A program made the position numbers and the translations under genes. Shown here one piece after another: positions 359 to 5,280 of a DNA stretch of 5,280 nt (its first letter is position 1; each line of letters starts with the position of its first letter). The notes below the pieces were generated by a model. It was not told where the DNA came from. It searched no databases and worked only from the letters and a program-made list of their open reading frames with translations. Source of the stretch: Planctomycetia bacterium (GTDB taxonomy: Bacteria > Planctomycetota > UBA1135 > GCA-002686595); the NCBI GenBank assembly GCA_005778045.1, contig SXKQ01000212.1:1-5280 (forward strand), given 5' to 3'.

Positions 359-769
359 GTGCAGACGGCGGCGACGTGGCAGAAAACGACGCTCGTGCTC
401 GCTGGGGCCTACAACCTCGCGTGGGGAACGCTCGTTGTGATCGCGCCGCGCGCGACGCTTGAGTGGCTCGGGCTCGAGGTCGAGACGCCGCTGATCGAGC
501 AACTCTGGGGCTGCATCGGCATGTTCGTGGCCGTGTGGGGCGTCGGCTATCTCGCAGCCGCGCGCGATCCGTTGCGCCATTGGCCGATCGTGATGGTCGG
601 ACTGATGGGCAAGGTCTTTGGACCGATCGGCTTCGCGCTGGCGCTCGCACAGGATGCGTTGCCTCTGTCGATGGGCAAGACGCTGCTCACGAACGACCTC
701 GTGTGGTGGATTCCGTTTGGTCTGATCCTGCGCGGCGCGCGACGGGCAGCGCTGGAGCGCGCCCCGTGA
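359..769 (+). CDS. Small four-helix membrane protein, partner of SelL-related protein
   Basis: This 136-residue integral membrane protein starts with GTG, which is supported by AGGAG at 344-348. Four hydrophobic segments are visible: residues about 10-29 ('TLVLAGAYNLAWGTLVV'), 47-67 ('LWGCIGMFVAVWGVGYLAAA'), 73-96 ('HWPIVMVGLMGKVFGPIGFA') and 111-125 ('NDLVWWIPFGLIL'). The motifs 'AYNLAWG', 'DPLRHWPIVMVGLMGKVFGPIGF' (read in two parts) and 'LTNDLVWWIPF' resemble a family of short membrane proteins that I recall being loosely annotated as alkyl hydroperoxide reductase. No peroxidase-type CxxC or catalytic Cys is visible; the only Cys is in 'WGCIG'. I infer the label comes from association with the peroxiredoxin-like gene that follows. 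Its stop overlaps that gene's GTG start (GTGA, 766-769), so the two are probably translated together. It could be a membrane anchor or redox partner. The biochemical role is unknown. Confidence 0.88.
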   Translation: MQTAATWQKTTLVLAGAYNLAWGTLVVIAPRATLEWLGLEVETPLIEQLWGCIGMFVAVWGVGYLAAARDPLRHWPIVMVGLMGKVFGPIGFALALAQDALPLSMGKTLLTNDLVWWIPFGLILRGARRAALERAP

Positions 770-1341
770 AGGCTCTCGCGACGGGGCGCGTTCTCACCGC
801 GCTGGAGGCCGCGCGCACGCAGCAGGGCACGACGCTCGCCCAGCTCTCGTTCGAGCGGCCCGTGCTCGCGGTGTTCCTGCGTCACTTCGGGTGAACGTTC
901 TGCCGCGAGGCAATGAGCGACCTCCGTGCGAGGCGCGCGCAGATCGAGGCGGAAGGCGTGCAGATTGCACTCGTGCATCTCGCGAGCGAGGCCGCGGCGG
1001 CGAGGTTCTTTGCGCTCTGGGGTATGGGCGACGTGCCCGGCGTAAGCGACCCGCGCTGCGAGCTCTACGCCGCACTCGAGTTGCCCAAGGGCAATGCGCG
1101 AACGCTGTTCGGGCCGCGGGTGTGGTGGCGCGGCTTCCGGGCCGGCGCACCGCGCTGGCTCGGCGGCGCCGGCCTCGGCGTCGGTCGCCCTCAGGGCGAT
1201 CCGCTGCAGATGCCCGGCACCTTCCTCCTCCACCGCGGCGCGGTGGTGCGCGAGCACCGCCATGTCGACGTCGCGGATCGTCCCGACTATTGCGCGCTTG
1301 CGCGCGGCTTAGACCCGTCCTCCGAGGAATCGCAACGATGA
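766..1341 (+). CDS. Probable selenoprotein: SelL-related peroxiredoxin-like protein with UxxC site
   Basis: Read through the in-frame TGA at 892-894, this encodes 191 residues in one frame, from a GTG (GTGA overlap with the previous stop, GGAG at 754-757) to a TGA that overlaps the next ATG. It belongs to the AhpC/TSA-like, SelL-related thioredoxin-fold group. A short helix region '[11 protein letters not shown]' is followed by the strand 'PVLAVFLRHFG', then the redox site at residues 43-46: U-T-F-C, where Cys homologues have C-x-F-C. Next come 'REAMSDLRARR', 'GVQIALVHLASE', 'GVSDPRCELYAAL', 'LFGPRVWWRGF' and 'QMPGTFLLHRGAVVREHRH', all typical of the family, so homology continues across the TGA. 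Established knowledge: SelL proteins carry a UxxU diselenide motif, and thioredoxin-fold proteins with Sec replacing the attacking Cys are common. The expected role is thiol-dependent peroxide or disulfide chemistry in the cytoplasm. Alternatives are a nonsense mutation or a base error (TGC/TGT to TGA). If TGA stops translation, only 42 residues are made. Internal ATG 913 would lack the fold's first strand and the active site. Confidence 0.82.
779..817 (+). repeat. 39-bp direct repeat, copy 2 (native, within SelL-related gene)
   Basis: Identical to positions 1-39. Here the sequence is in the gene's own frame and encodes family-like residues ([12 protein letters not shown]), so this is the original copy and the one at the window start is the transplanted one. 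The distance between copies is 778 bp. Confidence 0.9.
892..894 (+). other. In-frame UGA, candidate selenocysteine codon (U43)
   Basis: TGA falls exactly at the first Cys position of the redox motif in 'RHFG-[C/U]-TFC-RE'. The frame is open and homologous on both sides. UGA is a normal stop elsewhere in the window (ends of folE, the first membrane gene, SOUL and M28), so a genome-wide reassignment is not the explanation. Confidence 0.75.
914..939 (+). promoter_or_regulatory. Candidate bacterial SECIS hairpin
   Basis: By-eye folding gives the following pairs: 914-939 (U-G), 915-938, an A-G mismatch at 916/937, 917-919 with 934-936, a single bulged A at 920, and CCUC (921-924) with GAGG (930-933). 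The 5-nt loop CGUGC spans 925-929. The loop holds a GU, and the loop starts 30 nt after the UGA, in the coding region just downstream, as bacterial SECIS elements do for SelB binding. The bulge and the loop G/U echo the E. coli fdhF element. In GC-rich DNA such hairpins arise by chance, so the position next to the UGA carries most of the weight. Confidence 0.55.
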
Positions 1342-2114
1342 AGCTTCTCCGCTGGTCCAGCCTGTTCCTCTCCGCGCTCGCCGCCGCGTGCAGCTCATCT
1401 CAAAGCGCCGTCGAGGACGCGAGCAAGGCGCCGCAGATCGTGACGCCGCCCGCCGAGCCCGCTCCGCTGCCGGAGATCCCCGGTGGCGTGCAGCGCGTCG
1501 GCGGTGACATGGAGGCCAACGTCGAGAAGCTCGTCGGTCGTGGAGTGGATGGGGCGGACGTGTACGTCTTCGGCGACTGCAACGTCACGACCGCCCTGCC
1601 CGAGGGCTATCCTGCGCCGACGCCGCCGGGCGCGATCGAGATCAAGTCCTACCCCCGCGCGCGGCGCGCCGAAGTCACCGGCAACACGAACCCCGACCTC
1701 GGCATGTTCTTCGGCTTCTGGCCGCTGTTTCAGCACATCAAGCGCAACGAGATCGCGATGACCTCGCCGGTGGAGCTCGACTACCGCGGCTTCAACGATC
1801 GCGGTCGCGTCTCGACGCAGGGCTGGACGATGTCGTTCCTCTACCGCGAGCCCGAGATGGGAGCGGTCGGCAACGACGGCGACGTGGCGATCACCGACCG
1901 CTTGCCCGTGGTCGTGATCTCGAAGGGCAGGAAGGGTCCGTACTTTTTCGATCGCGCCGACACCACCGCGCAGGAGCTCGTGAAGTGGGTCGAGGCGAGT
2001 GGGGAGTGGGAAGTGGCGGGCGCTCCGCGCGCGCTCTACTACAACGGCCCGGACCAGGACAACTCGGACAAGTGGTCGGAGATCCAGATGCCGATCCGCA
2101 AGCGCGCGAAGTGA
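1338..2114 (+). CDS. SOUL-family haem-binding lipoprotein
   Basis: This 258-residue protein begins at an ATG overlapping the preceding stop (ATGA), with GAGG at 1324-1327 as ribosome site. The N-terminus 'MKLLRW' plus a hydrophobic stretch ending 'LSALAAAC-SSS' is a lipoprotein signal with a lipobox-like Cys at residue 18. A Pro/Ala-rich linker ('VTPPAEPAPLPEIP') follows, so the mature protein should be tethered outside the cytoplasm. The SOUL/HBP domain runs from about residue 98 to the end. It opens with 'AIEIKSYPRARRAEVTG', continues with 'GFWPLFQHIKRNEIAMTSPV' (W128 inside), which is the family's strongest motif, and ends with 'KWSEIQMPIRK'. SOUL proteins bind haem or other tetrapyrroles, and bacterial members are poorly characterised. 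The position behind a redox gene suggests haem or tetrapyrrole handling under oxidative stress, which is inference. The frame is open further upstream to 891, but that extension is antisense-like noise over the SelL-related gene. Confidence 0.9.
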   Translation: MKLLRWSSLFLSALAAACSSSQSAVEDASKAPQIVTPPAEPAPLPEIPGGVQRVGGDMEANVEKLVGRGVDGADVYVFGDCNVTTALPEGYPAPTPPGAIEIKSYPRARRAEVTGNTNPDLGMFFGFWPLFQHIKRNEIAMTSPVELDYRGFNDRGRVSTQGWTMSFLYREPEMGAVGNDGDVAITDRLPVVVISKGRKGPYFFDRADTTAQELVKWVEASGEWEVAGAPRALYYNGPDQDNSDKWSEIQMPIRKRAK

Positions 2115-4059: not shown

Positions 4060-5280
4060 ATGGAGTCCGGGATACTTCGCTCGCCTTCGCAGGAGTCCGC
4101 GGACGCGGGAGGGGCCTCGTCGCGACCGAATCTCCCGCCTGATTTCGGCAGCGCGGTTCTAAAGCGCCAGCGCGGCGGCGGCGCCCGGCGCTACGCGGTG
4201 CGGCAGGGGATCGGGCGCGGTGGGATGGGGCGCGTGCTGTCGGCGCGCGAAGAGGATCTGCGTCGCGAAGTGGCGATGAAGGTCACGCGCGAGGACGACG
4301 GAGACGCCGGTGACTCCTCGTCGCGGCGCTCCATGCGCCTCGCCCGCTTCCTCGAGGAAGCGCAGGCCACCGCGCAACTCGGCGAACTGGCATCGTACCG
4401 GTGCATGAGCTCCGTATCGACAAGCACGGGCGCGTCTACTTCACGATGAAGCTCGTGCGCGGCGAGGATCTCTCCCGCGTGATCGAACATGCGCGTGCCG
4501 GACGCGATGGTTGGATCGAGACGCGCGTGGTGACGGTGTTGCTGAGGGTGTGCGAGGCGATGGCCTAAGCGCACTCGAAGGGCGTGATCCATCGTGACCT
4601 GAAGCCATCCAACATCCGAGTCGGCCGGTTTGGCGCCGTGTATGTGATGGACTGGGGTCTCGCGCGGATCCACGGCCGCAGCGACGAACGCGACTTGCCG
4701 GTGCGTGAGTTCGAGCCTTCGGAGGCTTCGGAGCCGGTCGTGCCCGAGCGGACGTTGCAGCCGACCGGTGACTCGCCGCTGCACACCATGGACGGAACTC
4801 CGATCGGTACGCCGATGTTCATGTCCCCGGAACAGGCGAGTGGGTGTCTCGACCAGCTCCGCCCGACCATGGATGTCTACGGGCTCGGCGCGATCCTCTA
4901 CACGCTGCTCGCAGGTCGCATGCCTTATGTCGAGCCCCACGCCACACCGGACGGCCTCGCGATCGTGCGGCAGATCCGCAGCGGTCCGCCTCGCACGTTG
5001 CGCGAGCTCGTACCGCGTGCAACGCGGAGCTCGCGGCGATCTGCGAACGAGCGATGGAACGCGACCCATCGCGGCGCTATTGCCACATGGGCGAACTGGC
5101 GGAAGAGCTGCGTGCCTATATCGAGCAGCGCGTGGTGCGAGCGCACCGAGCAGGGCCTTGGAGCGAGCTCAAGCTCTGGTGCCGACGCAATCGGACCGTG
5201 GCGTTGTCGCTGGGATGCGCTGGACTCGCCGTTCCCTCTGGAGTGGCCGGAGTCGCTTGGTGGGAAGCGCTGCGGGGCGC
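4060..5280 (+). pseudogene. Membrane Ser/Thr protein kinase (Hanks type), disrupted, runs off window
   Basis: Three segments in three frames together make one kinase. Segment A (4060-4389) has 'GIGRGGMGRV' (residues 50-59), the ATP lysine K74 in 'VAMK' and helix-C E100 in 'FLEEAQATAQLGEL'. Segment B (from 4392, shifted frame) continues 'IVPVHEL', 'VYFTMKLVRGEDL', 'HRDLKPSN' (4590-4613), 'VYVMDWGLAR' (DWG for DFG, from 4650), 'GTPMFMSPEQA' and 'DVYGLGAILYTLLAGRMPY'. Segment C (from 5021, third frame) gives 'NAELAAICERAMERDPSRRY', 'ELRAYIEQRVV', then a hydrophobic helix from about 5197. The lesions are: loss of about 10 nt near 4390, removing the 'EHPG'-type turn; TAA at 4566 where relatives have Tyr ('AMA-Y-AH'); and about 1 nt lost near 5020. 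An intact version would phosphorylate Ser/Thr and carry a domain across the membrane. It is either a decaying paralogue or poorly sequenced DNA. Catalytic residues survive, so decay would be recent. Start ATG 4060 has no Shine-Dalgarno. Confidence 0.88.

Follow-up and report, generated by a model that had tools for sequence, protein, structure and literature searches.

The window analysed here is a stretch of 5,280 nucleotides whose forward strand carries three genes that overlap by a few bases. The first (359..769) encodes a small hydrophobic BphX-like protein of 136 amino acids, recognized by a sub-threshold BphX match and three hydrophobic stretches. The second (766..1341), the subject of this report, is a frame of 191 residues with a GTG start and a sole internal stop, the TGA at 892–894, which we propose to be a selenocysteine (Sec) codon, U43. 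The third (1338..2114) is a SOUL-like gene, its Pfam SOUL score of 25.5 bits lying just below the cut-off of 27. The GTG start overlaps the stop of the upstream gene as GTGA (766–769), and the stop of the frame overlaps the start of the next gene as ATGA (1338–1341). A 4-base 5′ overlap recurs in four related loci (L001–L004), as GTGA but in L001 as ATGA, which bears out the view of an earlier, sequence-only reading that the full-length frame is the unit of the operon.

The window aligns with these relatives from base 29 (L001, 93.3% over 3.4 kb; L002, 79% over 5.2 kb; L003 and L004, each 77% over 4.0 kb), and the aligned part takes in the end of a GTP cyclohydrolase I gene, the three overlapping genes and part or all of an M28 peptidase gene. 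Because the relatives align only from base 29, the first 28 bases of the contig look like an assembly artefact. Positions 1–39 are an exact repeat of 779–817, and the TGA at 892–894 is unaffected by the suspected artefact. At the other end of the window (4060–5280), a Ser/Thr kinase gene is spread across several frames with an in-frame TAA at 4566–4568, and represents either poor sequence or a decayed gene.

The UGA codon and its column in relatives

The stop codon lies in the context VFLRHFG-TGA-TFCREAM, exactly where relatives carry the first Cys of the motif RHFGCTFCRE. The second Cys of the motif is retained, both in the window, where TGC at 901–903 encodes Cys46, the proposed resolving residue of a UxxC motif, and in L001–L004. 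With UGA read as Cys, the protein matches the NCBIfam family NF040769 (SelL_rel_redox) at 139.6 bits (cut-off 120) over residues 16–178, across the TGA, so that homology extends to both sides of the stop as had been proposed; the Pfam domain AhpC-TSA_2 (PF13911) is matched at 42.6 bits against a gathering cut-off of 27. The in-frame UGA therefore stands at a Cys column of the relatives in a frame that is intact on both sides, the pattern by which selenoprotein genes are recognized.

Gene calling obscures this arrangement. The ORF listing splits the frame into an upstream ORF that merely ends at the TGA and a 142-amino-acid piece starting from the ATG at 913 (913..1341), and it is in this 142-amino-acid form that the window's own protein is present in the database (P0002). 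The six best database proteins after that entry (P0003–P0008) are likewise pieces of 127–142 amino acids from which the motif is absent. The expectation that standard callers would miss the gene was therefore correct.

Scanning a single genome from each species gave at least 37 relative loci. Among the 37 matches listed, column 43 was TGA in four and Cys in 33; the four TGA loci, L001–L004, come from planctomycete MAGs, are the nearest among the matches listed (90, 74, 70 and 70% identity) and all keep Cys46, while the 33 Cys loci among the matches listed divide into 21 with CxxC and 12 with CxxT. A search of 81 genomes from the family of the L001 genome gave matches in 37 genomes, and the 30 loci returned had TGA in the column in 27 cases (L001–L004 again included) and Cys in three; one TGA form, L089, has Thr at +3. 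Eight further stretches from the family search, chosen since their matches were reported to contain a TGA at some position, all had it in the column, with Phe at +3 in four. Loci L109, L110, L111 and L112 form a side branch of the WLRHCGU-LFF type, in which U is followed by Phe at +3 and there is no resolving Cys at that position.

The phylum sample covered 392 genomes, of which 80 had matches. The column was checked at 28 of these loci and was Cys in 26 (two of them from genomes already counted) and TGA in two, L122 and L132, the latter having its Sec domain fused to a BphX-like domain. When the 33 remaining TGA-bearing matches of the phylum sample were fetched, the TGA lay in the column in all 33, most being UxxC and a few having Ser or Ala at +3; as these loci were chosen for having a TGA, this result tests position and not frequency. 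All the loci examined thus had either TGA or a Cys codon at column 43, the outcome expected for a Sec position.

Selection and constraint around the UGA

The window and L001–L004 form a clade of five, giving ten pairwise comparisons. For residues 9–42, and again for the region past U+16, dN was lower than dS in all ten pairs. This bears directly on whether the TGA reflects a sequencing error, or else a nonsense mutation that arose recently, in what would otherwise be a plain Cys protein or a pseudogene. Signs of poor sequence do exist elsewhere in the window, namely the foreign contig end and the kinase gene lying across several frames. We nevertheless judge an error or mutation to be very improbable, given that the TGA is repeated in four related MAG assemblies, which stand in for reads, that the same TGA is found at dozens of more distant loci, and that the frame is kept and selected on both sides of it.

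The 16 codons that follow the UGA (U+1 to U+16, 895..942) showed a suppression of synonymous change. In three of the ten pairs, every one involving L004, dN exceeded dS here, which reflects the near absence of synonymous change in this stretch. Codons were identical in 127 of 139 same-residue pairs within U+1 to U+16, compared with 573 of 938 after it and 124 of 244 before it, and the highest codon identity of 175 successive 16-codon segments in the clade of five was that of the segment starting at the TGA column. Where the residue of a column is invariant, the five codons were all alike in 10 of 12 cases within the stretch versus 24 of 92 elsewhere (Fisher p = 0.0002, with kinship not corrected for). 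No such rise appeared in Cys relatives, taken as five groups of which two overlap, the values for U+1 to U+16 and elsewhere being 0.37 and 0.37, 0.43 and 0.56, 0.45 and 0.49, 0.86 and 0.94, and 0.56 and 0.55. A second Sec clade of 23 sequences had a weaker rise (0.60 vs 0.49), which was clear in four of its five subgroups; the fifth gave 0.52 vs 0.48, with a higher N-terminal value of 0.55. Constraint after the TGA in the Sec clade, and none in the Cys groups, is the prediction of an in-frame SECIS, and the codon comparisons demonstrate, at the level of the aligned sequences, constraint on the RNA downstream of the UGA.

The same constraint is informative about a scheme in which the locus yields two products, one a stub of 42 residues and the other a C-terminal protein of 142 residues initiated at ATG 913. 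Such a split would match both the ORF calling and the database entry. The constraint, however, runs through the supposed gap between the two products; in the AlphaFold2 model a product starting at ATG 913 would be without the first strand, the motif and some of the active-site helix; and the Cys relatives that were read are single proteins across the site. We therefore give the two-product scheme only a slight chance.

The position of the SECIS itself is less clear. For bacterial selenoproteins we applied the criterion of a SECIS hairpin 16–37 nt downstream of the UGA, and hairpins with uninterrupted stems were scored against synonymous shuffles. A hairpin with the loop CGUGC or CGUGA at +30 nt had the best score in L001–L004, and several members of the second clade have the same or a near loop at +33. 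The corresponding candidate in the window (917..936, with the loop CGUGC at 925–929, 30 nt past the UGA) has letters identical to the hairpin of L001–L004, yet a shifted fold scores better, and in the strict hairpin test the window's own hairpin was no better than synonymous shuffles (p = 0.25). The distance agrees with the bacterial SECIS model in the available portion of PMC13188914. Taken together, 28 Sec genes had stronger hairpins than 41 Cys genes (median z −0.49 vs 0.33, p = 0.0007, with kinship not corrected for), and −7.5 kcal/mol was reached by nine of the 28 Sec genes and three of the 41 Cys genes; a qualifying hairpin was absent in three of the 28. Folding the stretch past each TGA singly gave no common structure, and an Rfam scan of the window gave three matches, all far under threshold. 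The assignment of the exact SECIS hairpin is accordingly provisional.

Selenocysteine machinery and the distribution of Sec and Cys forms

The genome of L001 (G001) is a close proxy for the organism of the window, as the two share 93.3% DNA identity over 3,364 bases. tRNA-Sec, SelA, SelB and SelD were all over cut-off in G001 and in G002. SelB was not over cut-off in G004, and G003 had SelB and SelD, a fragment of SelA where a contig ends, and no accepted tRNA-Sec. A tRNA-Sec candidate in G003 (45.8 bits, cut-off 47) was rejected, since ARAGORN gives it as tRNA-Cys(GCA) and Rfam returned nothing over threshold. In L104 of G003, positions 494–597 contain a sequence of about 96 nt that resembles a tRNA, with a long variable arm and the anticodon GCA (Cys), and that had no Rfam match over threshold.

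Among the 23 Cys-form genomes covered by the machinery searches, eight had selA over cut-off, so machinery alone cannot tell a Sec form from a Cys form. Its distribution does follow the TGA. In the 81-genome family, selA was over cut-off in 74 genomes, including 33 of the 35 with a TGA checked at the column, the two exceptions being G003 (selA fragment) and G056 (no selA). In the phylum sample, 41 genomes had the TGA form, each confirmed at the column for one locus or more, and 39 of them had strong selA; among the 39 other genomes the number was 12, or 10 at a stricter threshold. The association of the TGA form with selA had a Fisher p of 7.6e-10, kinship not being corrected for, and the two TGA-form genomes that showed no selA were G311 and G359. 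The least probable explanation is that UGA encodes a standard amino acid, Trp or Cys, in this lineage with no selenium involved, for although the frame is open once UGA is taken as a residue and relatives have Cys there, the gene's own stop and that of its upstream neighbour are TGA, the gene uses TGG four times, a single TGA at a single Cys column points to Sec, and relatives have Sec machinery, with tRNA-Sec(TCA) identified by ARAGORN in G001, G002 and G004 and with SelD itself containing an in-frame TGA in each of G001–G004, the four near TGA-form genomes.

These data indicate that the gene in the window most likely encodes a UxxC selenoprotein of the SelL-related family NF040769, a reading drawn from sequence comparison to which we give a probability of roughly 0.9. 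The central claim of the sequence-only reading is upheld in this respect by a column that holds only TGA or Cys, a selected frame, constraint downstream of the UGA and Sec machinery in near relatives.

In phylogenetic trees the window and L001–L004 form a supported clade (100/98) that is nearer to Cys proteins than to the second Sec clade. The 176-row tree needs two Sec/Cys changes, and none of 200 bootstrap trees needs only one; with L122 and L132 added, the minimum is four. Holding all Sec rows together was not rejected (p = 0.758), the constrained tree in fact scoring higher, and since that grouping stands we do not claim several origins of Sec. Genomes G095 (L080 and L106) and G400 (L117 and L171) each have a Cys form and a Sec form, and the two forms within each genome may be a selenium-dependent pair.

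The BphX-like gene lies upstream of the Sec gene in all five members of the window's clade, and was not found beside L081–L103, where about 1.5 kb or less was covered on each side. The BphX-like protein of the window has 49% identity to the N-terminal part of P0012, and of the database homologues P0002–P0121, 77 have 250 residues or more, 74 of these carrying a BphX-like part fused to the redox domain; none of the 43 shorter ones does. As far as the literature searched shows, the link between the window's branch and a small BphX-like membrane protein is new.

Relation to known redox proteins and proposed function

The AlphaFold2 model (mean pLDDT 88.6) has a strand at 33–37, then U43, then a helix at 44–62, and so would place U43 at the start of the active-site helix. 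R39, H40, R47, R57, R122, Q148 and P150 are invariant in 50 aligned sequences, and by analogy may act as in other thioredoxin-fold enzymes. A Foldseek ranking put peroxiredoxin Q first and human prostamide/prostaglandin F (PGF) synthase eighth. The latter was also the top PDB sequence match (9us9, E = 1.4e-8), and the profile alignment pairs U43xxC46 with its C44xxC47, RRFGCVVCR with RHFGCTFCR. The human enzyme has a CxxC without Sec, and as it is an animal enzyme its substrate is not implied for the window protein. Also comparable are the Cys forms of NF040769, such as P0012 (154.6 bits for the family), which have fold and motif context in common with the window protein; the named members seen have Cys at the first motif position, and P0012 is fused to a BphX-like domain.

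SelL, said to have been described by Shchedrina and colleagues in 2007, reportedly has a UxxU motif with two Sec residues and a diselenide. As in the window protein, Sec comes first in a CxxC-like motif, and kinship is implied by the family name. The window protein is set apart by its motif, UxxC with one Sec, position 46 being TGC (Cys), and so is not a SelL in the strict sense. The sequence-only reading compared it with UxxU proteins only and saw an intermediate between CxxC and UxxU. That argument has to be dropped, as UxxC Prx-like selenoproteins are already in print in the portions available of two papers: Prx-like 2 of the Global Ocean Sampling survey (PMC2398784) and the algal AhpC_b (PMC7539508). 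Prx-like 2, described there as marine, with UxxC, several UxxU sequences and a weak similarity to pfam04592, is like the window protein a bacterial Prx-like UxxC selenoprotein, compared here by description only. AhpC_b, compared in the same manner, is an AhpC/TSA-domain UxxC selenoprotein with prokaryotic Cys relatives; it comes from a diatom and has a eukaryotic SECIS, unlike the window gene. The AhpC/TSA selenoprotein assigned to pfam13911 or cd02970 in the accessible parts of PMC9312934 and PMC13188914 has the Pfam domain of the window gene and differs in its motif, given as UxxS for pfam13911 in PMC9312934.

We propose a model in which the product of the window gene would be a selenoenzyme with a thioredoxin fold, belonging to the SelL-related family. 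The ribosome would insert selenocysteine at the UGA (892–894), guided by an RNA signal just 3′ of it. U43 would attack a peroxide or a disulphide, and C46 would then form a selenenylsulphide, which may be reduced by thiols of the cell or by an electron donor in the membrane. In the least certain step, the BphX-like membrane protein probably serves as a tether for the enzyme or as its coupling to the membrane.

Planctomycete selenoproteins as such are already known from the portion available of PMC4807772. A query with the second clade gave 61 protein matches, 51 of them shorter than 140 residues; 'selenoprotein' appears in none of the names given to these 61, and the eight full-length matches that were read are Cys forms. 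The terms 'SelL' and 'Planctomycet' do not occur in the main texts of PMC13188914, PMC9312934 and PMC12013277, and a search for 'SelL-like' with selenocysteine found no literature, although an earlier report of the family is possible. As far as the literature searched shows, a broad Sec group in Planctomycetota that is shortened in protein databases is new. More tentatively, and as a possibility that we consider well short of even odds, a large group of selenoproteins may have escaped annotation in the Planctomycetota. Within it a single catalytic position would have switched between Sec and Cys several times, with a varying +3 residue (Cys, Thr, Ser, Ala or Phe), and in one branch the selenol enzyme would be coupled to the membrane and have a BphX-like partner, with two overlapping genes encoding them in the window and a single fused gene in L132.

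Overall, the bacterial selenoprotein listed for this Pfam family is UxxS, and the finding would extend the family to UxxC in a phylum that is not named in the main texts of two prokaryotic selenoproteome reviews searched. Many short 'hypothetical proteins' in planctomycete MAGs would also be explained, as fragments of selenoproteins. With Sec and Cys forms that occur with or without a membrane domain, and sometimes in the same genome, the family would be good material for asking why Sec persists.
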